Below are positions 1,255 through 33,201 of a stretch of 40,040 nucleotides of DNA, piece by piece. The first letter of the stretch is position 1; every line of letters begins with the position of its first letter. Origin of the DNA: Deltaproteobacteria bacterium. GTDB lineage: Bacteria > Desulfobacterota > B13-G15 > RBG-16-54-18. The notes beneath the pieces are model-generated. The model worked only from the letters and a program-made list of their open reading frames with translations, was not told the DNA's origin and ran no database searches. Location: contig JAFDHG010000013.1 of the NCBI GenBank assembly GCA_019308925.1, forward strand, positions 1-40,040, in the 5' to 3' direction. The translations under genes and the position numbers were made by a program.

Positions 1255-1410
1255 ATGGCTATTGCCATTAGAGGATCTGAGAAACGATTGGAGGATTTAA
1301 AAGCAGAACCCAAAAAGACCCTTGATCGGCTTGAGGAAGAGGATTTGGTAGTTGAGAGGAACCCAGAACCTATATCAGTTGCTATTAGTGTACCGAGGAC
1401 TAAAACGTGA
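1255..1410 (+). CDS. Small 51-residue protein translationally coupled to the restriction enzyme gene
   Basis: ATG at 1255 is preceded by GGAGAAG (1246-1252). The frame ends in TGA 1408-1410, overlapping the GTG start of the 1363-residue enzyme in a GTGA. That overlap plus the Shine-Dalgarno argue that it is translated. The sequence is charged in the middle, with a short C-terminal L-V-V-E-R-N-P-E-P-I-S-V-A-I segment. This faintly recalls the strand-strand core of Phd/YefM antitoxins (a hydrophobic strand, E/R-N-G-K-P, a second strand), but the similarity is too weak for a call. It may be a controller or assembly peptide, or a decayed antitoxin feeding the downstream start. Confidence 0.5.
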   Translation: MAIAIRGSEKRLEDLKAEPKKTLDRLEEEDLVVERNPEPISVAISVPRTKT

Positions 1411-4400
1411 AGTCCCATCTTAACAAAGGACTTTTTTCTAACTATTACCTTGAAGAACTCCTTCCGAGGGAGGAGGAATTCAAGATCTCATTACCAGAAT
1501 TAGAAAAAGTTATAGAAGAAATTAAGTGTATATGGGATAAGAAATATCTTTCATCGCTTAATGAACCCCAACTCCGAAAACATTTCTTGGATAAGGTTTT
1601 TGAAACCTTAGGCTGGACAATCGATGTAGAGCCTCCGACACCATCAGGTGAATGGTCAAAACACCCTGATTATGCCCTGTTTCACTCTATGGAGGACTTA
1701 AAGAATGCCCAGAAAGCAACTAAGGAAGAATATTTCAAAAAATCTCTTTGTATAGGGGAAGCCAAGCGCTGGGAAAGACCACTCGATAAGAAAATAAAAG
1801 TTGACCCTGAAGACCCACAAAATCCCTCCCTCCAAATAAGTAGATATTTATGGCTTACCGAAGTTAAATGGGGGATACTTACTGATGGAAGGTACTGGAG
1901 GCTTTATGAAAGAGAGACTTCAAAGAGGCTAGATATCTTCTATGAGATAGATTTAGAAAACCTTATTGAAAATGGCTCTATAGAGGACTTCAAATACTTC
2001 TATCTCTTCTTCCGAAGGCATGCTTTTCCTTATTTTTTAGAAAAGGTCTATAAGGAAAGTGTTGACTATGCTGAAGCGGTCGGTGAAGCACTTAAAGAAA
2101 ATGTCTACCAGGCGCTAAAGACCTTGGCTCAGGGCTTTTTGAAAACACCAGAGAATGACCTAAAAGAAAGTCGTCTTAAAGAGATTCATGACAACTCCCT
2201 GATCCTCCTTTACCGCCTTCTCTTCATCCTCTATGCCGAGTATCGCGGACTCCTCCCTCTACTAGGAGAAAACCAACTTTATACCGAATCATACAGTCTG
2301 GATGCCCTTAAGAAGGAAATAGCAGATAGATTAGATAGACACGAACCCATCGCCACCTCAACACATGGATACTGGAATAAAATAAAAGAATTATTTGAGA
2401 TCATAAATACTGGGAATTCCGAGCTAGGAGTGCCTCCATACAACGGTGGGCTTTTTGACCCCGATAAACACGAATTTCTGGAAAAATATAGGGTAGGAGA
2501 TCTTTATATCGCAAAGGCAGTAGACCTTCTCTCCCGTTCCAGTGATAGGGCTTATATTGATTATGGTAGCCTTGAAATCCGTCATTTAGGCTCTATTTAT
2601 GAGGGCCTTCTGGAATACAGACTCAAGATTGCTGAAGAGAAGCTTGTTTCCGTAAAAGAAAAAGGTAAGGAAGTCTTTATTCACCTTGAAGAGGCCAAAA
2701 AGGCAAAAAAGAAGATTAAGGAACAAGAAATTGTCAGTAAAGGTGAGGTATATCTAGTCACTGACAAAGGCGAGCGTAAGGCAACTGGTTCCTACTACAC
2801 CCCTGACTATATTGTCAACTATATCATTGATAACACTCTTGGCCCTCTTGTACAGAGGATTTATAGGGAATCAAAGTTAGCCCAAGAGATTAGAAACAGC
2901 ACTCGTCATTTTGATGAAATTTTCGAAGAAATAGTTAAGGAAAGAGGAGAGGAAGAAAAGGAGAATTTACTTAAATTATGGAACCTGACCAGAGGCAATC
3001 AGGAACAGCGGGGTTTCCTTCTAAATATGCTTGATGGCGCAGAACCTTCTCATGGATATGATCCATTAGAACGAATTCTTCAATTAAAAATTCTCGATCC
3101 TGCAATGGGAAGTGGTCATTTTCTGGTAGAGGCTACTGATTATCTGGCAAGGGAACTCCTTAAGGTTTTAAGCGGCGAGCCCCTGTTGAAACCCTCAAAG
3201 GAAATGGTGGTCAGGGAAGCTAAGGAGCCTTATGGTCTAAAAGAACCAGAAGAAGAGGACATAAGGTGGGCAAGGCGTGAAGTAGTAGAAAGGTGCATTT
3301 TCGGAGTGGATTTGAACCCACTGGCAGTGGAGTTGGCTAAACTCTCTTTGTGGCTTTACACGGTAGCAAAGAACAGACCCCTTAATTTCCTTGATCATCA
3401 TTTAAGATGTGGGAATTCCCTAATTGGAGCAAGAATAGATAATTTAGCAAGCCTTCCTGAATTGAAAAAGAAAAAACCACAAGCTGGGCCTATCCAACTT
3501 GGACTCTTTGAAAGTATCTTCAAGGAAAAAGTCAATATTCTCCTTGGGGCCTTTGGCCAGATTGAGGGCCTTCCCTCTGATACAGTAGAGCAGATCAGGG
3601 AAAAAGAGAAATTTTATAATGATTTTAGAAAGATAACCACCAGATTTCAAGATGTGGCCGATGTATGGACAAGTGTATATTTTGGAAATGATGAGGTTTT
3701 CAACTGGTATGCCAAGCTTGAAAAGAATCTTAGAGCAACCGATGAGGAATGGGAAAGATTAAGCCACGAACGCTGGTTCAAAAAAGCAAAAGAGATTGCT
3801 GACGAAAAGAGATTCTTCCACTGGGAACTGGAATTTCCAGAGGTCTTCTTTGAAGGACACCAAAGAAAGGAGAACCCTGGCTTTGATGCGGTAGTGGGGA
3901 ATCCACCGTGGGCTTCGCTTAAGGGAAAGTTCCGAATCGCTAACTTTGACGACCAAGAAGCACTATATTTATCAATCGCATTCCCAGACAATACTTATAT
4001 GCCAAACTTATTTGAGTATTTTATCGGGACTGCCTTGAAACTTGTTCAAATAGGAGGAAGACATTCGTTTATAGTTCCTGACCGATTAGGCTTCAATGCA
4101 AACTTAAGGTATCTTCGTTCGCAAATACTTCAAGATACTAAGATTAAAAGCTTACTCTACAAAATAGCTTTTCCTGATGTAACAGCTGACACTTTAATAT
4201 ATGATTTGGAGAAGGCCCCTAAGATGCCGACCGATTGGATTGTGAAGGTTACGGACTATCAAAAAGGTAGTATTAGGATTCCTCAATCTTACTATGCTGA
4301 ACTGCCTGACAATGAGTTCCTATTCTTTGATAGTGAAAGGGTGATAGAAATTATTCATAAACTGGAGGGTCCAAATATTTCTCTGCTTGACAAGTTGGTA

Positions 4401-5498
4401 GAATCCACTTCTGGCTTTGGTGGCAAATCTGCAAGCATCACTTCTATCAGAAAATCAGTCAAACAAATTCCAGTTATCAAGGGCGAAAATGTTCAGAAAT
4501 ATTTGATAGATAATCATTTCTATTTTGAATTCAAATCTAATAATATCACTGGTCGGACAAAAGACATATGTAAGCTAGGAGCTCGCCCAAAGGTCCTTCT
4601 TCGCAAGACAGGCGTAGAAATAATATCAGCATACGATGATACAGGTAGGTATCCTGAACAATCTGCTTACTTCCTTTTTAATAAGATTACATGCGAGGAT
4701 TATAAGTATTTGCTTTGCCTTTTGAACTCAAAGACTCTAACTTTCTATTATTGGTATAAACTTGTTACCAACCGCGACTCTACACCACAACTCAAAAAAA
4801 TACACTTGGATGCATTTCCCATTCGTCGTATCTCATTTGTCACGCGCAAAGACCAACGGGAGCGCTTAGTTTACGAAGCAAAAAAACATTATAAAAAATT
4901 TCTTGAGAGAGGAAATTCTAATACCATCCTCCACTTTGTCGAATCCCGATTGATAAAGGAGCATAAGCCTGATCCGGAACTTGTTAAAAAGCATAACGTA
5001 GATCCACTCAATAAAGACTGGCAGTTTCCTGAAGGTGCTTTATGGGAGCAATCAGATGTTGTCCATGATATTCTGACATTTCTTGCAGAGCAAATGATTG
5101 AAATGAATAAAGAGAAACAGGAGGAGACTAAGGGATACCTTGAATGGCTTGAGAGTCAGCTAAAAATTCAATCAGATGCTGAGGGGAATGCAGGTATTGA
5201 GGCCCTTACTGGAAAAACACAGATTAAAAACTATTTGGGCGACTACCAGAAAGGAGAAGAGCATCTCTCGTTTGATCAATTCTGGAAAATTTTGGAGAAA
5301 AATAAGACCAGAATCCAGGCAAATCTCAAATCCAGGGAGCTTTATGAAAATATCAGATCAGAATACGAAAAATCCCTCACAAAACTCTTACCCTTAAAAG
5401 AAAAACTCCGTAAAACCGACTGGCTCATAGACCAGATCGTTTACAAGCTCTACGGATTGACGGAAGAGGAGATAAAGATCGTGGAGGAAAATCGATAG
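1407..5498 (+). CDS. Type IIG (Eco57I-like) restriction endonuclease-methyltransferase
   Basis: A 1363-residue single-chain enzyme predicted to cut and N6-adenine-methylate DNA. The nuclease head shows a PD-(D/E)xK arrangement: P87-D88 followed by G117-E118-A119-K120. The methylase carries G-S-Y-Y-T-P near 462-467 (motif X region), L-D-P-A-M-G-S-G-H-F at 563-572 (motif I, SAM binding), D-L-N-P-L-A-V-E-L-A-K after about 632, and catalytic N832-P-P-W835 (motif IV). Residues about 880-1150 are the likely target-recognition region, followed by a charged helical tail. All key residues look intact, so it should be functional. The GTG start overlaps the small upstream gene. No separate methylase or specificity subunit is nearby. 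Confidence 0.9.
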   Translation: MKSHLNKGLFSNYYLEELLPREEEFKISLPELEKVIEEIKCIWDKKYLSSLNEPQLRKHFLDKVFETLGWTIDVEPPTPSGEWSKHPDYALFHSMEDLKNAQKATKEEYFKKSLCIGEAKRWERPLDKKIKVDPEDPQNPSLQISRYLWLTEVKWGILTDGRYWRLYERETSKRLDIFYEIDLENLIENGSIEDFKYFYLFFRRHAFPYFLEKVYKESVDYAEAVGEALKENVYQALKTLAQGFLKTPENDLKESRLKEIHDNSLILLYRLLFILYAEYRGLLPLLGENQLYTESYSLDALKKEIADRLDRHEPIATSTHGYWNKIKELFEIINTGNSELGVPPYNGGLFDPDKHEFLEKYRVGDLYIAKAVDLLSRSSDRAYIDYGSLEIRHLGSIYEGLLEYRLKIAEEKLVSVKEKGKEVFIHLEEAKKAKKKIKEQEIVSKGEVYLVTDKGERKATGSYYTPDYIVNYIIDNTLGPLVQRIYRESKLAQEIRNSTRHFDEIFEEIVKERGEEEKENLLKLWNLTRGNQEQRGFLLNMLDGAEPSHGYDPLERILQLKILDPAMGSGHFLVEATDYLARELLKVLSGEPLLKPSKEMVVREAKEPYGLKEPEEEDIRWARREVVERCIFGVDLNPLAVELAKLSLWLYTVAKNRPLNFLDHHLRCGNSLIGARIDNLASLPELKKKKPQAGPIQLGLFESIFKEKVNILLGAFGQIEGLPSDTVEQIREKEKFYNDFRKITTRFQDVADVWTSVYFGNDEVFNWYAKLEKNLRATDEEWERLSHERWFKKAKEIADEKRFFHWELEFPEVFFEGHQRKENPGFDAVVGNPPWASLKGKFRIANFDDQEALYLSIAFPDNTYMPNLFEYFIGTALKLVQIGGRHSFIVPDRLGFNANLRYLRSQILQDTKIKSLLYKIAFPDVTADTLIYDLEKAPKMPTDWIVKVTDYQKGSIRIPQSYYAELPDNEFLFFDSERVIEIIHKLEGPNISLLDKLVESTSGFGGKSASITSIRKSVKQIPVIKGENVQKYLIDNHFYFEFKSNNITGRTKDICKLGARPKVLLRKTGVEIISAYDDTGRYPEQSAYFLFNKITCEDYKYLLCLLNSKTLTFYYWYKLVTNRDSTPQLKKIHLDAFPIRRISFVTRKDQRERLVYEAKKHYKKFLERGNSNTILHFVESRLIKEHKPDPELVKKHNVDPLNKDWQFPEGALWEQSDVVHDILTFLAEQMIEMNKEKQEETKGYLEWLESQLKIQSDAEGNAGIEALTGKTQIKNYLGDYQKGEEHLSFDQFWKILEKNKTRIQANLKSRELYENIRSEYEKSLTKLLPLKEKLRKTDWLIDQIVYKLYGLTEEEIKIVEENR

Positions 5499-8284: not shown

Positions 8285-8506
8285 AAAGGATCTAAAAATG
8301 TAGTAGCTTGGATGGAAATGTAGTAGTTTTATATAATTCAACTTAATTTTGAAGGAACTACATTCCTTCCTTCCGGTGGCTTTTTTCAGTTCATGTTGCT
8401 CACCATTTTTACCGCATTGCCTTTGTCACCCCGAAAGGAGCTGGAAGGATTGGTGGAGGAATTTAAAGAAATATATAATAAAGTAGCTTATGGAGGAGGA
8501 AAGGGA
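8285..8506. other. Non-coding stretch ahead of the nucleotidyltransferase-darTG operon
   Basis: AT-rich. It holds two direct copies of AAATGTAGTAG (8296-8306 and 8316-8326) and a perfect hairpin GAAGGAA-CTACA-TTCCTTC (8351-8369), whose CTACATT is part of an inverted copy of the same word. A possible promoter reads TTGAAA (8281-8286), 17 bases, TAGCTT (8304-8309). A frame open from 8393 runs into the next gene but shows no domain before the strong Shine-Dalgarno at about 8492-8505, so I treat it as untranslated. Repeats beside a candidate promoter suggest an operator for this toxin-antitoxin operon; this is inference. Confidence 0.35.
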
Positions 8507-8851
8507 ATGAAATCCGTTGATGAAATCAATATTTCTAATAAAGAGAAACTTATTTTACGGGAAATTAAAGAGGCCGTGCAAAGGATCACGCCAAATGCAG
8601 AGATCGTATTTTTTGGTTCCAGGGCCCGAGGAGAGGTGGCTCATGAATCAGATTGGGATATCCTTATCCTTGCAGATAACGTCACCTATGAATTAAAAGA
8701 TGAGCTATGCACTGCTCTCTACGACATGGAGCTGGAAAAAGACATTATTATTAATCCCCTCATATTAAATAAAAAGGAGTGGGTGTCCGGACTTTTCTCT
8801 AACCATCCTACCCATAGGAATGTCGAAAGAGAGGGTGTTTTGATACCATGA
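8507..8851 (+). CDS. MNT-type nucleotidyltransferase in operon with darT
   Basis: 114 residues with F-F-G-S-R-A-R-G (G37, S38) followed by E-S-D49-W-D51-I-L-I, the nucleotide- and metal-binding core of minimal nucleotidyltransferases. The start at ATG 8507 is preferred over an in-frame ATG at 8393, because GGAGGAGGAAAGG stands immediately upstream and homology begins only here. The stop overlaps the darT start in an ATGA. There is no HEPN partner, unlike the pair at 35-741. Its place as first gene of a DarT-DarG operon suggests a role connected with ADP-ribosylation toxicity or its control. Confidence 0.85.
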   Translation: MKSVDEINISNKEKLILREIKEAVQRITPNAEIVFFGSRARGEVAHESDWDILILADNVTYELKDELCTALYDMELEKDIIINPLILNKKEWVSGLFSNHPTHRNVEREGVLIP

Positions 8852-9438
8852 ACCGAAGTGACCTTCAGGAACTCCATTACATCACCACCATGAGGAATGT
8901 TCCTTCGATTATTTCCAGGGGCATCCTTTCTCACAAGCAGTCGAAAGAGATAAACCATAATTCTGTTGCCATGGAGGTAATTCAGGAGCGAAGGAAGAAG
9001 AAAGTTGTTCCTGGTGGACGTCCATTACAAGAGTATGTGAATCTGTATATCCATGCCAGAAATCCAACGCTCTATGTTCTCCGATCTCGTCATACTGATC
9101 TTTGCATTTTCCGTATAAGTACGCAAATTCTTGACTTGCCAGAGGTTATTATAACCGATAGCAATGCCTCAAGTGACTATGTACGTTTCGCTCCTGCTCC
9201 AAGGGGGCTTTCCATAGTTGACAAAGAGATGACATTTGCTGAATACTGGGCTCATCCTGACCCGTTTGAGGCGATGCGCCGCAAGTCAGCAAAATGTGCT
9301 GAGGTTTTGGTTCCAGATCGTATAGACCCTAGTCTTATTATGGGAGCTTATGTCTCGTGTCCTGAAGCAAAAGCAGCAGTTGAAGCACTGGGAGTTGATA
9401 TTCCTGTAACTATAAATTCATATCTTTTCTTCACATAA
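8848..9438 (+). CDS. darT: DarT-like single-stranded DNA thymidine ADP-ribosyltransferase toxin
   Basis: 196 residues matching DarT (DUF4433). The N-terminus has L-H-Y-I-T with a nearby I-I-S-R-G-I-L-S. E-R-R and P-G-G-R-P-L-Q-E-Y-V fall near 48-64, then A-R-N-P-T-L-Y, and a C-terminal K-C-A-E152-V-L-V-P whose Glu is the expected catalytic residue. DarT uses NAD+ to ADP-ribosylate thymidine in single-stranded DNA, which blocks replication; it works as a toxin and as phage defence. The start overlaps the nucleotidyltransferase stop by four bases and darG follows after ten bases. All parts look intact. Confidence 0.9.
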   Translation: MNRSDLQELHYITTMRNVPSIISRGILSHKQSKEINHNSVAMEVIQERRKKKVVPGGRPLQEYVNLYIHARNPTLYVLRSRHTDLCIFRISTQILDLPEVIITDSNASSDYVRFAPAPRGLSIVDKEMTFAEYWAHPDPFEAMRRKSAKCAEVLVPDRIDPSLIMGAYVSCPEAKAAVEALGVDIPVTINSYLFFT

Positions 9439-9448
9439 GGAGGGGAAA

Positions 9449-10573
9449 ATGGTCAAAGTATTGATGGGAGATATTCTAGAATCCAAGGCCCAGACCCTTG
9501 TCAATACTGTGAATTGCGTTGGAATCATGGGAAAGGGGATTGCACTAGAATTTAAAGAGCAGTTCCCTGATATGTTCAGGGATTATGTAGAACGGTGCAA
9601 TCGGAAAGAGGTCAAACTTGGGAAACCCTATCTGTTTAAAAGGCTTATTCCCCCTTGGATTTTGAACTTTCCAACTAAGGAACATTGGAGGTCTGTTTCG
9701 CGCATTGAAGACATTATACAGGGTTTAAAATATTTGCTTCAGCATTACAAAGAATGGGGGATTACGTCTCTTGCTGTTCCCCCGCTTGGTTGTGGTCAAG
9801 GTCAATTGGATTGGAAGATAGTTGGGCCAACCCTATACCGCTACTTAAATCAATTAGATATCCCTGTTGAGCTTTATGCACCCTACGGGACACCACATGA
9901 AGAGTTGCAGCCTGAATTTCTGGAGCAGGCCCCAGATGTTAAAAGGACCGAGCCAGAATTTGCTCCGGAAAGGATTAAACCTGCATGGGTTGCCTTAGTG
10001 GAAATTCTGAAACGCGTGGAAGAAGAACCTTACCATTGGCCTGTTGGCAGAACTACGTTCCAGAAAATTGCCTACATTGCAACCCAAGAGGGATTGCCGA
10101 CTGGACTGCAATACAAAAAATCAAGCTTTGGACCATTCTCTCCAGAGTTAAAGGGTGTTATTACCCAATTAGTCAACAATGGCTTAATACGGGAAGAGCA
10201 ACTTGGACGTATGTTTGCAGTGAAGGTTGGGCCAACTTTTGAGGATGCACGCAAAGCTTACGTGAATGATTTAGTAAAATGGGAATCAATTATTGATAAG
10301 ACAGCGGATTTATTCATGCGCATGCAAACAAGGCAATCTGAGGTCGTTGCTACAGTCCTTTTTGCTGCCAATATATTATCAAACAAAATAAATGACCAAC
10401 CCTCCGAAGCAGAAGTCTTACATGAAGTAATGCAATGGAAACAACGCCGTCGCCCAAAACTTAATGCCAAGGAGGTCGCCTACACGATTCGTAACCTAGC
10501 TGCTTTGAGATGGTTGAAAGTCAAACCAAGTTCAGGCTTACCAATACCGGATGAAATTATTGCTGAGGCATAA
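9449..10573 (+). CDS. darG: DarG-like macrodomain antitoxin (DNA ADP-ribosylglycohydrolase)
   Basis: 374 residues. Residues 1-155 form a macrodomain: V-N-T-V-N-C-V-G-I-M-G-K-G-I-A, P-T-K77-E-H-W at the position of the catalytic Lys of DarG, and P-P-L-G-C-G-Q-G. DarG reverses DarT modification of DNA. The C-terminal part (about 175-374) contains F-Q-K-I-A-Y-I and S-F-G-P-F-S-P-E-L. This resembles the K-L-x-Y...Y-G-P core of DUF4065/Panacea-like domains and probably sequesters DarT directly. A strong Shine-Dalgarno, AAGGAGGGG, precedes the ATG. It is clearly the partner of darT. Confidence 0.9.
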   Translation: MVKVLMGDILESKAQTLVNTVNCVGIMGKGIALEFKEQFPDMFRDYVERCNRKEVKLGKPYLFKRLIPPWILNFPTKEHWRSVSRIEDIIQGLKYLLQHYKEWGITSLAVPPLGCGQGQLDWKIVGPTLYRYLNQLDIPVELYAPYGTPHEELQPEFLEQAPDVKRTEPEFAPERIKPAWVALVEILKRVEEEPYHWPVGRTTFQKIAYIATQEGLPTGLQYKKSSFGPFSPELKGVITQLVNNGLIREEQLGRMFAVKVGPTFEDARKAYVNDLVKWESIIDKTADLFMRMQTRQSEVVATVLFAANILSNKINDQPSEAEVLHEVMQWKQRRRPKLNAKEVAYTIRNLAALRWLKVKPSSGLPIPDEIIAEA

Positions 10574-15051: not shown

Positions 15052-16035
15052 CTATATCTCCATGGCCTCCCTCGCCTCAGTCATGGTGTTCTGGGCCACC
15101 GCTGTCGCCCTTTCGGTCCCTTCACGGATGATCTCCTCTACCTCACCTAAATGGGTGAGGTAGTAATCCCTCTTCTCCTGGATAGGGGCCAGATATTCTT
15201 TCACCCTCTTGACCAAGATTCTTTTGCACTCGGTGCATCCTATTCCAGCCCGACGACAATCCCTATCGATCTCCCGGACAACCTCGGGATCAGTATAGAT
15301 GCGGTGATAGGAGAAGACGCTGCACACCTCTGGGTCCCCTGGATCCTTCCTGTATCCCCTTTGAGGGTCTGTGATCATCTGCTCGATCTTGGCCGCCAGG
15401 ACCTCTTCAGGGTCAGAGATATAGATGGCGTTGTTGTAGCTCTTACTCATCTTCCTCCCATCGATCCCCAGCAGGTTGGGGACTTCCGTTAATAACGCCT
15501 CGGGAAGGGGGAACACCTCTCGATATAGATAGTTAAACCTGCGGGCTATCTCCCTGGTGATCTCTAAATGGGGGAGTTGATCCCTGCCCACGGGGACATA
15601 ATTACCCTTGTACATGAGGATGTCGGCGGCCTGCAGCACGGGATATCCGAGAAAGCCATAAGTCCCCAGCTCTTTGTCCCCCAGCTCTTCTTGCTGCTCC
15701 TTGTATGTGGGGTTGCGCTCCAACCAACCGAGGGGGGTGATCATGGACAGCAGGAGATGGAGCTCTGCATGTTCCTTTATCCACGACTGGACAAAGAGGG
15801 TGCTGCGCTGGGGATCTAGGCCCACACTCAACCAATCGATGAACATCTCGGTCAAACTCTCGTTGATGACGGAGGTATTCTTGTATTCAGAGGTCAAGGC
15901 GTGCCAATCCGCAGCGAAATAAAAGCATTCATACTCGTCCTGGAGACCCCGCCAGTTCTCTAGGATGCCGTGAATATGCCCCAAGTGGGTCTTGCCGGTG
16001 GGACGCATGCCGCTTACTACCCGCCTCTTCTCCAT
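15052..16035 (-). CDS. trpS: Tryptophanyl-tRNA synthetase
   Basis: A 327-residue class I synthetase charging tRNA-Trp. The HIGH-type motif is G14-K-T-H-L-G-H20 and the KMSKS motif is K195-M-S-K-S199, with G-R-D-Q-L-P-H for tRNA/ATP handling in between. Length is normal. GGGAGGA stands upstream of the ATG. The C-terminal part has a C-x2-C-like G-C-T-E-C-K, seen in some bacterial TrpRS. It is the second gene of the operon. Its presence is relevant to the putative Trp attenuator at 30672-30814, though the two loci are far apart. Confidence 0.96.
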   Translation of the reverse strand: MEKRRVVSGMRPTGKTHLGHIHGILENWRGLQDEYECFYFAADWHALTSEYKNTSVINESLTEMFIDWLSVGLDPQRSTLFVQSWIKEHAELHLLLSMITPLGWLERNPTYKEQQEELGDKELGTYGFLGYPVLQAADILMYKGNYVPVGRDQLPHLEITREIARRFNYLYREVFPLPEALLTEVPNLLGIDGRKMSKSYNNAIYISDPEEVLAAKIEQMITDPQRGYRKDPGDPEVCSVFSYHRIYTDPEVVREIDRDCRRAGIGCTECKRILVKRVKEYLAPIQEKRDYYLTHLGEVEEIIREGTERATAVAQNTMTEAREAMEI

Positions 16036-29495: not shown

Positions 29496-30533
29496 CTAAT
29501 AATGGAGCGTCACCTCCCTCAGGAGATCCATATCATCCAATAGCTTACCCGATCCCATAACCACAGTACAGAGGGGATCGTCCACGATGGTTATGGGGAG
29601 GTTTATGACGTTGCGCAACAAGACATCTATATTTTTCAACAAGGCCCCGCCCCCGGTTAAAACTAACCCCTTATCGACGATATCAGAGGCCAGCTCCGGT
29701 GGAGTCCTCTCCAAGGTGATCCTTACCACATCCACGATGTCGTTCAGGGAGTCTGTAATGGCCTCCCTCACCTCCCCCACTGCCAGCTCCAAGGTCTTGG
29801 GAATACCTGAGACCAAATCCCTTCCTTTGATCTCCATTGTATCCGTGGCATCGTCGGTGGGGAAGGCATTTCCCAAATTGATCTTCACCAGTTCGGCAGT
29901 CCTCTCTCCAATGGAGAGATTATATTTCCTCTTCACATACTGAATGATGGCCTCATCCATCTTATCACCCCCCACCCGGATGGAATTGCTGGTGACGATT
30001 CCACCCAGGGAGATTACCGCCACCTCTGTGGTCCCTCCTCCTACATCCAAGATCATATTGCCCGAGGCCTCGGTAATGGGGAGTCCTGCCCCGATGGCCG
30101 CAGCCATTGGTTCATTGGCTAAGTAGACCTCCCTACACCCGGCCGACTCTGCTGACTCCTTCACCGCCCTCCTCTCCACCGGGGTGATCCCCGAGGGGAC
30201 ACAGACGACCACACGGGGGCGGACGAAGGATCTGCGATTGTGGGCCCTGAAGATAAAATAACGGAGCATCTGCTCTGTTATCTCAAAATCGGCGATGACC
30301 CCATCTTTCATCGGACGTATGGGGATGATATTCCCAGGGGTCCTTCCCAACATGCCCTTCGCCTCCTCCCCGATGGCGAGGATTTTCTGATTCCCCCTGG
30401 GGTCGCGATACACGGCCACGACCGAAGGCTCATTGGACACTATCCCCTTTCCCTTGACATAGACCAAGGTGTTGGCTGTCCCGAGATCAATGGCCAGATC
30501 GGTGGAAAAGAGGCTCATAACAGCATCAAACAT
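29496..30533 (-). CDS. mreB: MreB, actin-like cell-shape protein
   Basis: 345 residues: A-I-D-L-G-T-A-N-T-L-V-Y (phosphate 1), I-L-D-V-G-G-G-T-T-E-V-A (phosphate 2) and the adenosine motif V-L-T-G-G-G-A-L-L. It polymerises under the membrane and guides the elongasome. The frame is open to 30557, but GGGGGAG (30537-30543) immediately precedes ATG 30533 and M-F-D-A-V-M-S-L-F-S-T-D is the usual MreB start. First gene of mreB-mreC-mreD-mrdA-rodA. Confidence 0.97.
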   Translation of the reverse strand: MFDAVMSLFSTDLAIDLGTANTLVYVKGKGIVSNEPSVVAVYRDPRGNQKILAIGEEAKGMLGRTPGNIIPIRPMKDGVIADFEITEQMLRYFIFRAHNRRSFVRPRVVVCVPSGITPVERRAVKESAESAGCREVYLANEPMAAAIGAGLPITEASGNMILDVGGGTTEVAVISLGGIVTSNSIRVGGDKMDEAIIQYVKRKYNLSIGERTAELVKINLGNAFPTDDATDTMEIKGRDLVSGIPKTLELAVGEVREAITDSLNDIVDVVRITLERTPPELASDIVDKGLVLTGGGALLKNIDVLLRNVINLPITIVDDPLCTVVMGSGKLLDDMDLLREVTLHY

Positions 30534-30560
30534 AATCTCCCCCTTTTTTATATACAATAT

Positions 30561-30620: not shown

Positions 30621-30649
30621 TTGACTTCCCTTGCCCCTTGTGATAGAAG
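30621..30649 (+). promoter_or_regulatory. Promoter for the iorAB leader
   Basis: TTGACT (30621-30626), 17 bases, TAGAAG (30644-30649). The predicted start at about 30656 lies just before AAAGGAG (30658-30664), the ribosome site of the leader peptide. iorA itself is about 180 bases downstream, leaving space for the attenuator. Confidence 0.65.
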
Positions 30650-30671
30650 TCTACCATAAAGGAGCGTAATA

Positions 30672-30716
30672 ATGGTCAGGTACTCTTGCCTCAATTGGTG
30701 GCGTAAGGAAAAATAG
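30672..30716 (+). CDS. Candidate tryptophan leader peptide (14 aa) of iorAB
   Basis: ATG 30672 to TAG 30714-30716 encodes MVRYSCLNWWRKEK. It has a full Shine-Dalgarno (AAAGGAG, 30658-30664) seven bases upstream and lies directly downstream of a promoter. Two adjacent Trp codons (30696-30701) sit four codons before the end, as in trpL of enteric bacteria, whose WW also lies shortly before the stop. The stop is five bases before the first arm of the antiterminator. The function is inferred: ribosome stalling at the Trp codons would sense charged tRNA-Trp. Confidence 0.65.
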   Translation: MVRYSCLNWWRKEK

Positions 30717-30720
30717 AGGG

Positions 30721-30814
30721 GGAGTGGCCTGGCCAATGAAGTAACTGAGAGATAAAGAAGGAAAAGACAAGGGGGTCATAGGCCACTTCAAAAGGCTTAT
30801 GGCCCTAATTTTTT
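30721..30814 (+). promoter_or_regulatory. Attenuator: mutually exclusive antiterminator and terminator hairpins before iorA
   Basis: Arm 2 (30721-30730, GGAGTGGCCT) pairs with arm 3 (30780-30789, AGGCCACTTC) over ten bp, including one G-U. Arm 3 can instead pair with arm 4 (TGGCC at 30800-30804, plus TA at 30806-30807 after a one-base bulge), which is followed by TTTTTT (30809-30814), a rho-independent terminator. The structures share A780-A785 and so exclude each other. A ribosome held at the Trp codons leaves arm 2 free (antitermination); one at the leader stop would cover arm 2 (termination). iorA starts 25 bases after the T run. Pairings were found by eye; energies were not computed. Confidence 0.6.
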
Positions 30815-30838
30815 GACCACTTGTGCGGGGTTGAGGAG

Positions 30839-32638
30839 ATGAAACAGAGAAGATCAGTAGGTAAGGTCCTCATGGGAAATGAGGCCATGGCGTGGGGAAT
30901 CATAGAGGCTGGGGCCACGGCGGCAACCTCCTACCCCGGAACCCCTGCCTCTGAGATCATGGAGACGGTGTGCCGGATAAAGGAGGAGCACAGTTTGAAT
31001 ATCCATACCGAATGGTCGGTGAACGAAAAGGTAGCCTTTGAGGTGGCCCTGACCAATAGCTACCTAGGCAGAAGGTCAGCCGTTATGATGAAACAGATGG
31101 GATTAAATGTGGCCTTAGATCCCTTGATGAGTTCTGCTTACACAGGCGTAAGGGGTGGTTTTGTCCTCATCGCCGCCGATGATCCTGGGCCTTATAGCTC
31201 CCAGACAGAGCAGGATAGCAGATACCTAGCGACCTTTGCCAAGATACCCGTTTTTGACCCCTCCTGCCCTCAAGAGGCCAAGGAGATGGTGAAAAGGGCC
31301 TTCGAACTCTCTGAGGAATATGAGATACCGGTGATGATGAGACCGACCTCCTGGGTATGCCACTCCCGCCAGGGGGTTGTCTTGGACAAGATAGAAGGGA
31401 GAAACGAAACTCCCTCTTTCAAAAAGGACCCCCAGCGTTGGGCAGCAACCCCAAGATTCAGATATCTTCTGCACAAGGAGCTAAACAGAAAGATCAGAGA
31501 GATCTCTCTCCGAAACCACCCATCCCCCATCTCCGCCCCTGGGGGGGCGGAGATGGCTGTGGTGGCCTCAGGGGTCCCCTATGCCTATGCTTACGATGTC
31601 GTCAAGGCCATGGGGCTGGAGGAAAGGGTGGCCTTGTACAAGGTCGACCTCCCCTACCCCCTGGGCCAGGAGATAGATGAACTTGTACAAATCCATCCAC
31701 AGACCTTGATATTGGAGGAGACCTATCCCGTGATAGAGCTTCAGATAGGCTGCAGGGAGGGAGTCAGGGGAAGGTTGGACCTCACCATCCCCTCCGAGGG
31801 AGAACTAACCCCAGACATCATCGCCCACCTCTTCGCCACCCTCTTGGGTGAAGGGGTGGGGGAGGTGAGGATCCCCCCTGAGGGGGGGAGGAAACCGAGT
31901 TTGTGCCCTGGCTGCCCTCACCGGGCGGCATTCTGGGCCCTAAAAAAGGCCTTGCCCCAGGGGATATATCCCGGCGATATAGGCTGTTATACCCTGGGGT
32001 TGAATCTCAAGGCCGTGGACACCTGCCTGTGCATGGGTGCAAGCGTCAATCAAGCCGCAGGCCTTTACCACTCTTTTAAACAGGGACAAAAGAGTGTCCC
32101 ACCCATTGTTGCCACCATCGGAGACTCTACCTTCTTCCATGCAGGGATCACAGGTTTGATCAACGCCGTCCACCAAGGGGCCTCCTTTGTCCTTCTCATC
32201 CTGGACAATGGGACGGTGGCCATGACTGGTGGACAACCCACACCAGCAGGGGGTGGTCCGGGTAAAAGTATACAGATAGAGGAGGTAGTTAGAGGGTGTG
32301 GGGTGGACTTCATCCGGACAGTGGACCCCTATGACATCCCCCTCCTGATTCAACTTTTAAAGGAGGCGGACCACTATGCACGAGGCGAGGAGAAGGGGGT
32401 AGCGGTGATCATCGCCAGGCACCCTTGCCTGATCTATGGGGCTAGGGATGAGAAAAAGGGGGGGGGTGAGATCTTTATCGGAGAGGAATGTGATCTTTGT
32501 GGTCTGTGCACGGAGAGGTTCGAATGCCCAGCCTTGTGCAAAGGCCCTCAAGGGGGACCCATTATCATCAAGACCTTATGTACCAACTGCGGCGCCTGCC
32601 TTTACGTATGCCCGCAGGGGGCGATAAAGAGGGTGTAA
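30839..32638 (+). CDS. iorA: Indolepyruvate:ferredoxin oxidoreductase, alpha subunit
   Basis: 599 residues. It converts arylpyruvates (from Trp, Phe, Tyr) plus CoA and oxidised ferredoxin to aryl-acetyl-CoA, CO2 and reduced ferredoxin, or the reverse. N-terminal pyrimidine domain: L-M-G-N-E-A-M-A-W-G and S-Y-P-G-T-P-A-S-E-I. TPP domain: C-P-G-C-P-H-R, G-D-I-G-C-Y-T-L-G, G-D-S-T-F-F-H-A-G. C-terminal ferredoxin segment: C-D-L-C-G-L-C and C-T-N-C-G-A-C-L-Y-V-C-P. The ATG at 30839 with purine-rich GGGGTTGAGGAG is preferred over TTG 30821. Expression appears controlled by the upstream attenuator. iorB follows two bases later. Confidence 0.93.
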   Translation: MKQRRSVGKVLMGNEAMAWGIIEAGATAATSYPGTPASEIMETVCRIKEEHSLNIHTEWSVNEKVAFEVALTNSYLGRRSAVMMKQMGLNVALDPLMSSAYTGVRGGFVLIAADDPGPYSSQTEQDSRYLATFAKIPVFDPSCPQEAKEMVKRAFELSEEYEIPVMMRPTSWVCHSRQGVVLDKIEGRNETPSFKKDPQRWAATPRFRYLLHKELNRKIREISLRNHPSPISAPGGAEMAVVASGVPYAYAYDVVKAMGLEERVALYKVDLPYPLGQEIDELVQIHPQTLILEETYPVIELQIGCREGVRGRLDLTIPSEGELTPDIIAHLFATLLGEGVGEVRIPPEGGRKPSLCPGCPHRAAFWALKKALPQGIYPGDIGCYTLGLNLKAVDTCLCMGASVNQAAGLYHSFKQGQKSVPPIVATIGDSTFFHAGITGLINAVHQGASFVLLILDNGTVAMTGGQPTPAGGGPGKSIQIEEVVRGCGVDFIRTVDPYDIPLLIQLLKEADHYARGEEKGVAVIIARHPCLIYGARDEKKGGGEIFIGEECDLCGLCTERFECPALCKGPQGGPIIIKTLCTNCGACLYVCPQGAIKRV

Positions 32639-32640
32639 AA

Positions 32641-33201
32641 ATGGATCTCCAAATGGTCATCGCTGGTCTGGGAGGGGAGGGAATCATTTTTATGACCCGT
32701 GTCTTGGTAGAGGGCCTCTACCGATGTGGCCAACCCGTGATCTCAACGGAGACCCACGGCATGGCCATGAGGGGAGGATCGGTGATATCACAGATCAAGA
32801 TTGGGGATTACCAGAGCCCCCTGATCCGTTATGGGGAGGCCGACCTTTTAGTGGGGACCTCTCTCGAAGAGGCCCACAGGAATCTCCCCTACCTCAAAGA
32901 GGGGGGGATAATCATTAAAAATACACCTCAAAAAGGGGTCCATTGTATCGATGCCAGCGCAATAGCTCACAAGATAGGCAATCCCAGGGGAGGTAATTTG
33001 GTCCTCCTGGGATATGTCTTAGCCCATCTTGTTCCGGCCATCTCCATTGAACCCTTCCTAGAGGTCACTGGAGAACTCACCCCAGAGAAGTTTCTTACAG
33101 GCAATCTAAAGGCCTTACAGGAGGGATGGCAGGTAGTTTTGCAAGGTAATAAGGAGGAGGACAAAGCGGAGGAGGGGAATCAGGCGGCACGGGAAAATTG
33201 A
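32641..33201 (+). CDS. iorB: Indolepyruvate:ferredoxin oxidoreductase, beta subunit
   Basis: 186 residues of the gamma-type pyruvate/ketoisovalerate oxidoreductase domain: V-I-A-G-L-G-G-E-G-I-I-F-M-T-R-V-L, T-E-T-H-G-M-A-M-R-G-G-S-V-I-S. The start is ATG 32641 with GAGGGTG upstream. The frame is open farther upstream but overlaps iorA there. Its last 22 bases are antisense to the end of rpsU. Confidence 0.93.
   Translation: MDLQMVIAGLGGEGIIFMTRVLVEGLYRCGQPVISTETHGMAMRGGSVISQIKIGDYQSPLIRYGEADLLVGTSLEEAHRNLPYLKEGGIIIKNTPQKGVHCIDASAIAHKIGNPRGGNLVLLGYVLAHLVPAISIEPFLEVTGELTPEKFLTGNLKALQEGWQVVLQGNKEEDKAEEGNQAAREN

Follow-up and report, generated by a model that had tools for sequence, protein, structure and literature searches.

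Evidence for a tryptophan attenuator in front of the indolepyruvate:ferredoxin oxidoreductase genes iorAB of a deltaproteobacterium

Introduction

Most accounts of indolepyruvate:ferredoxin oxidoreductase (IOR) treat it as an enzyme that oxidises arylpyruvates. Since it can also run the other way and form them, its direction is normally hard to guess from a genome. We asked what the DNA in front of one pair of iorAB genes says about their control, and what that control implies for the direction of the enzyme. The genes lie in a 40,040-nucleotide stretch from a Deltaproteobacteria bacterium (assembly GCA_019308925.1, contig JAFDHG010000013.1), referred to below in its full length as the window. 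An original prediction, made from these letters alone, had proposed a Trp attenuator with a Trp-Trp leader peptide before iorAB. Our analysis, which is confined to sequence and includes no expression data, indicates that the leader is very probably a Trp attenuator of iorAB. The RNA mechanism appears well supported on these grounds, and the direction of the enzyme is inferred.

Results

Anatomy of the leader upstream of iorA

As criteria for an attenuator we took a short frame that has a ribosome-binding site and contains tandem Trp codons, a leader stop codon close to arm 2, a 1:2 protector, and a 2:3 antiterminator that is mutually exclusive with a 3:4 intrinsic terminator. In the window, a promoter-like site, ribosome-binding site, leader frame, arms and terminator are all observed within positions 30621-30814, in the gap between mreB and iorA. 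The features are as follows.

29496-30557, minus strand: mreB, the gene 5' of the leader region
30621-30649, plus strand: promoter-like site TTGACT-17-TAGAAG, from direct reading; an inferred promoter, not shown to be one
30658-30664, plus strand: AAAGGAG, ribosome-binding site for the leader, from direct reading, 7 nt 5' of the ATG
30672-30716, plus strand: leader peptide frame MVRYSCLNWWRKEK, with tandem Trp codons; bin116 has an orthologous frame, and some 30 other genomes have Trp leaders
30673-30687 (about), plus strand: arm 1, the protector, from the minimum-free-energy fold of 30656-30815; pairs with arm 2 if no ribosome covers it
30721-30734, plus strand: arm 2, 5' strand of the antiterminator, from its duplex with arm 3; compensated G-C to A-U change relative to bin116
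30772-30789, plus strand: arm 3, used by both antiterminator (2:3) and terminator (3:4), from folds and duplex energies
30794-30806, plus strand: arm 4, intrinsic terminator, 13-bp 3:4 hairpin of -22.3 kcal/mol
30809-30814, plus strand: U-run of the terminator, six T, from direct reading
30839-32638, plus strand: iorA, IOR alpha subunit; TIGR03336 (E 3e-188), with POR_N, TPP_enzyme_C and Fer4
32641-33201, plus strand: iorB, IOR beta subunit, 2 nt after iorA; PF01558, POR (E 4e-29)

The promoter-like site has its -35 TTGACT at 30621-30626 and, after a 17-nt spacer, a weak -10 TAGAAG at 30644-30649. It is absent from the listing of a stricter consensus scan of the window; bin116, whose IorA is 87% identical to that of the window, retains TTGACT and a similar -10. 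The leader frame runs from an ATG at 30672 to a TAG at 30714-30716 and carries tandem Trp codons at 30696-30701, so that the criterion of a tandem-Trp frame with a ribosome-binding site is met. The last Trp codon lies 19 nt from arm 2 and the end of the leader stop 4 nt from it, which meets the criterion of stop-codon proximity; in most relatives the stop likewise falls near or inside arm 2. The ATG of iorA (30839) follows the end of the U-run by 24 nt.

Arm 2 pairs with 30781-30789 over 9 contiguous base pairs, or 10 if U30730-A30780 is counted, and the 2:3 helix extends to 30774-30778 for a total of 14 bp. The duplex has an energy of -24.0 kcal/mol against -12.9 +/- 2.7 for shuffled sequences, and none of 200 shuffles was as good. 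The 3:4 terminator joins 30772-30784 to 30794-30806 around a loop of 9, so that the 2:3 and 3:4 helices exclude each other. The 1:2 protector is present in the fold of the window, the only sequence to which that statement applies. Folded as a whole, the 160-nt leader (30656-30815) beat all 200 dinucleotide shuffles (z -4.06).

Much of the original prediction reads correctly from the letters, namely the promoter-like site, AAAGGAG, the leader frame and the 10-bp pairing of 30721-30730 with 30780-30789. The competing hairpin and its six T's are also real, but it had been drawn too short, at 30780-30785/30800-30807. The spacings of 20, 5 and 25 bases need correction to the values above, although the layout that they described, one suited to control by a ribosome, stands. 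The alternative 2:3 and 3:4 pairings were recognised and arm 1 was missed.

Folding with the ribosome at different positions

When a stall at the second Trp codon was simulated by removing the upstream RNA, with arm 4 absent, the 2:3 helix formed (-20.2 kcal/mol). With the ribosome placed at the stop codon no 2:3 helix formed, because half of arm 2 was covered. In equilibrium folding of the finished leader the terminator was preferred in every state tried, and the antiterminator won only before arm 4 had been made. Given this equilibrium preference of the full-length RNA, the choice between 2:3 and 3:4 has to be kinetic. This outcome of the folding model is as expected for kinetic control, but it is not proof of it. 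In known attenuators the choice is kinetic (general mechanism in PMC1183508).

These folds suggest how the switch may operate. When Trp is plentiful, the ribosome would move past the Trp-Trp pair to the stop codon and cover part of arm 2; arm 3 would then pair with arm 4, and RNA polymerase would terminate before iorA. With charged tRNA-Trp in short supply, the ribosome would stall at the Trp codons and leave arm 2 free for arm 3, and the resulting 2:3 helix would block the terminator so that iorAB is transcribed. Read-through at low Trp is thus an inference.

We also considered a T-box, a riboswitch or a TnaC-like sensor in place of starvation-dependent stalling at the Trp codons, each of which could in principle act at the same position on the same ligand. 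No Rfam family, the T-box model included, matched the window at the gathering threshold or any of ten related loci at E 0.1. TnaC works through Trp-induced stalling and Rho, whereas here an intrinsic terminator and an antiterminator have arm 3 in common. Sensors of these kinds are therefore very improbable, and stalling at the Trp codons remains the preferred reading.

Trp leaders upstream of related iorA genes

It had been argued from the window alone that parts at such fitting distances are unlikely to arise by chance. This was too strong: at four other places in the 40-kb window a short frame contains a Trp pair and has a terminator-like site behind it, which makes the single-sequence argument weak. 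We therefore gathered iorA genes from relatives and scanned their upstream regions. The sample comprised 395 genomes of the phylum together with family-level sets, with 450 nt scanned per gene. The scan set consisted of 99 distinct iorA loci at at least 47% identity, and a locus was flagged if it had a Trp-pair leader and a terminator at a fitting distance.

Of the 99 loci, 34 had such a leader and terminator in front of iorA, a 28-fold excess over the 1.2 obtained from dinucleotide shuffles. The same scan run with each of the other 19 residues gave 1.7- to 6.7-fold over shuffles; only Trp was strongly enriched in leaders, and Phe was at background. In the controls, none of 18 distant iorA paralogues was flagged; of the other genes at these loci, 8 of 460 were. 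Roughly two in three of the related iorA genes had no such leader in the 450 nt scanned.

Examples of the leaders are MGSRILNLWWWWWGKKRGGVCP (L053), MRFSKATIKESFWWCWWWCDIKGVRTAHQ (L048), MSGNQILGNIGRWFWWWSSPQVKPVHR (L073), MRSKGEYWWWFACI (L007) and MDGKALSRLWWRFTPE (L065). Geometry was analysed for 31 leaders: the last Trp codon lies 9-20 nt from arm 2 in 30 of them and 6 nt from it in L086, and in these leaders arm 3 of the terminator is also complementary to arm 2.

The flagged loci and the true leaders do not coincide entirely. L013 and L100, both among the 34, were judged to be chance matches whose arms do not fit, and L066 and L097 were likewise set aside by eye. The scan overlooked L076, L166 and L047, in which leaders or model matches were found by eye or with a covariance model.

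Covariation of the arms

The orthologous leader frame of bin116 is MVRCSSFTWWCKGKKGE. The 2:3 helix reads GUGGCCU:AGGCCAC in the window and GUAGCCU:AGGCUAC in bin116, a compensated replacement of G-C by A-U. When 16 distant iorA leaders were aligned, 99.2% of the cells in the 2:3 helix and 97.2% of those in the 3:4 helix were paired; controls with the register slid gave 34-49% and 35-45%, respectively. In L070 and L076 a U-A pair replaces C-G in the 2:3 helix, and the arm-3 base concerned keeps its 3:4 pairing through a matching change or a wobble. L084 shows an equivalent compensated change in three arms, one base further along. Joint changes in arms 2, 3 and 4 are to be expected if selection maintains both alternative helices. 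The shuffle controls of the covariation analyses are indicative only, as the sequences share ancestry.

A second group, from family f33, had 92.5% (2:3) and 97.5% (3:4) of its cells paired, with compensated changes confined to the 3:4 helix. In this family and in L086 the 2:3 pairing was weaker, often no better than in shuffles.

These comparisons bear on whether the leader could be an ordinary terminator of the mreB-iorA gap beside a fortuitous short frame. Such a coincidence gains something from the four comparable sites in the window and from relative L037, which keeps a terminator without a leader. It is already contradicted by the excess of 34 loci over 1.2, by the orthologous frame and compensated pair in bin116 and by the covariation of three arms, and we regard it as scarcely credible. 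Loss of the short frame, the Trp codons or the compensating arm changes in related genomes would have refuted the original prediction; all three are kept in related genomes, and one close relative, L032/L037, has lost the start codon of the leader. The reading of the region as a Trp attenuator before iorAB is supported on sequence grounds, with the comparative evidence carrying it. As far as these alignments go, the significance of the window's leader comes from related genomes and not from the single sequence.

Trp leaders of trp genes and distribution of the iorA leaders

We built a covariance model, R1, only from the 16 iorA leaders. R1 detected leaders 5' of trpE and trpD-like genes in many genomes, among them L121 (61.5 bits) and L119 (50.7 bits) of the same phylum, with the arm motif shared. 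Because a model of iorA leaders recognises those of trpE and trpD, the observed homology suggests that the two probably have a common ancestry. In several genomes, for example G034 and G165, both the trp operon and iorAB carry a Trp leader. The window's own leader scored only 14.7 bits and is too diverged for the model.

In three genomes of the window's family (G001, G006 and G007), R1 found leaders such as ...NAWWCWWWKTESVH before a stand-alone TrpB-like gene, for which the best NCBIfam model is PRK12391 (TrpB-like). These stand-alone genes with Trp-rich leaders are L188 (G006), L189 (G001) and L196 (G007). In family f9, Trp-rich leaders (e.g. ...YWWCWQNYRGEVCPAPF) stand before a first gene that is trpD-like and not trpE (L200, L194, L199 and L203).

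About 30 related bacterial genomes carry a Trp leader before iorA. The attenuated genes belong to eight families, f1 (that of the window), f33, f20, f27, f38, f72, f71 and f90, and they cluster on a tree of IorA with 105 rows (10 label changes against 27 in shuffles). The closest named relatives of the window's iorA come from metagenome-assembled Deltaproteobacteria/Thermodesulfobacteriota. The iorA of G171 (L032/L037, family f74), whose product is 79% identical to that of the window, groups with the f1 genes on the tree, a placement suggestive of horizontal transfer. Its leader, as noted, has lost the start codon and retains the terminator; G171 has a full trp operon with a Trp leader of its own, MKRILSIGNSWWWWKNIGEGFVHR, before trpE.

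The iorAB genes and their genomic setting

The window's IorA matched TIGR03336 over its full length and as its best model, with 626.8 bits against a curated cut-off of 650.9. Among attenuated relatives, L007 (654.3) passes this cut-off and L009 (630.0) does not. Every match of iorB to the NCBIfam IOR beta models was below its cut-off. As expected of an IOR, TPP-binding and ferredoxin domains are present in IorA and iorB adjoins it; an iorB-like gene lies 3' of iorA in 28 of 30 attenuated loci.

The genome of the window (G000; 2.40 Mb, 120 contigs, 99% complete) encodes chorismate synthase (aroC), and in it we observed no match to the N-domain of anthranilate synthase component I (trpE), to TrpB or to TrpA. 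The same trpE, TrpB and TrpA searches were positive in all 14 control genomes. G005 was without chorismate synthase, the trpE N-domain, TrpB and TrpA, in a genome only 80% complete.

Five PaaK-type C-terminal ligase domains are encoded in G000. Downstream of iorB in the attenuated relatives we found paaK in 9, a LIV-type ABC permease in 16 and a DctP binding protein in 2 of 30 loci. The same genes also follow iorAB that has no leader (16, 17 and 3 of 82, respectively), which makes them less specific as support; such neighbours would still support an aryl-acid context. In the window a sigma factor gene comes after iorAB, with no ligase or transporter genes following.

Elsewhere in the window, about 15 kb from the attenuator, a class I tRNA synthetase of the Trp/Tyr family (PF00579; Trp or Tyr undecided) lies at 15052-16035 on the minus strand. 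The remaining observations concern the plus strand. DarT (8848-9438) and DarG (9449-10573) form a toxin-antitoxin/defence pair (PADLOC E 1e-37 and 2e-95). A large Eco57I-type methylase with a TaqI-like specificity domain occupies 1407-5498, its best PADLOC models being DrmMI and type IIG restriction-modification. Small proteins at 35-741 and 8393-8851 match the PADLOC candidate families PDC-S09 and PDC-M05 and flank the methylase region, with which they perhaps make up a small defence-gene cluster.

Discussion

The order of control inferred here, with iorAB predicted to be expressed when Trp is scarce, fits a gene of Trp supply, and from this we infer that IorAB makes indolepyruvate from indoleacetyl-CoA. 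In the proposed route indoleacetate would be converted to its arylacetyl-CoA by a CoA ligase, IorAB working reductively would join arylacetyl-CoA, CO2 and reduced ferredoxin to give indolepyruvate, and transamination would yield Trp; each of these steps is inferred. IorAB most likely works reductively, with direction and substrate inferred and not shown, and it is quite likely that the enzyme here supplies Trp or aryl acids. Whether it is the last route to Trp in the window's organism is evenly balanced, and uptake of Trp was not considered.

A genuine Trp attenuator might instead control an oxidative IorAB, serving fermentation of aromatic amino acids or supply of ferredoxin, with the control tuning catabolism in some other way or merely inherited from a trp operon. 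The usual description of IOR and the homology to trp-operon leaders, from which the leader may have been recruited, leave room for this. Expression at scarce Trp, as the 2:3/3:4 order predicts, makes little sense for Trp breakdown, however, and the leader, its arms covarying, has been retained before iorA across eight families and is present in a genome without trpE, TrpA or TrpB. We consider an oxidative role unlikely.

It remains possible, though the weaker case, that iorAB serves a broad salvage of aryl acids and supplies Phe and Tyr as well, with Trp sensed as their representative. This would be a variant of the reductive reading and not its opposite. PaaK-type ligases and several types of transporter follow iorAB in relatives, and the methanogen IOR serves synthesis of aromatic amino acids from aryl acids generally, according to the available portion of PMC4162585. 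Against this, Trp is the sole strongly enriched leader codon and Phe is at background.

Returning to reductive Trp supply, a wider proposal is that a single, homologous Trp attenuator came to be placed before trp operons, stand-alone TrpB-like genes and iorAB across the phylum and so defines a Trp supply regulon. On this proposal the window's lineage has lost the trp pathway, and attenuated IorAB, working reductively on indoleacetyl-CoA, is its sole remaining route to Trp. We would put no more weight on this proposal as a whole than against it.

A Trp-starvation switch before iorAB would point, on the evidence of regulation, to an anabolic direction in bacteria and across many lineages. It predicts that organisms classed as Trp auxotrophs for lack of trp genes may in reality produce Trp, using indoleacetate released by their neighbours. 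The leader also offers a sequence mark by which anabolic iorAB, with partner ligases and transporters, could be picked out.

The open-licence literature that we searched, including the text of PMC2965389, contained no Trp attenuator before iorAB; an older comparative mention is not excluded. The switch is of a known type with the classic mechanism, and its iorAB target is apparently undescribed. In the archaeon Methanococcus maripaludis, IOR is reported to serve the synthesis of aromatic amino acids, with aryl acids as starting material (cited in PMC4162585 and PMC3462420), which is alike in the direction proposed here; that system is archaeal, and the available parts of these sources mention no Trp attenuator. 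Peptide-leader attenuators precede amino acid genes of Actinobacteria and ilvBNC of Corynebacterium (PMC1262725 and PMC10272879, from the portions available), where, as we propose for iorAB, regulatory codons control genes that supply the same amino acid, in other phyla and with other genes. The trpE/trpD Trp leaders of the same phylum share the arm motif and differ in the downstream gene. Unlike trpL of the E. coli trp operon, the window's attenuator controls iorAB and not trpEDCBA, and it matches no Rfam model. In its design, however, it is like trpL: both have a tandem-Trp leader, arms that pair as 1:2, 2:3 and 3:4, an intrinsic terminator just before the first gene, and a stop codon placed so that a ribosome there can cover arm 2.
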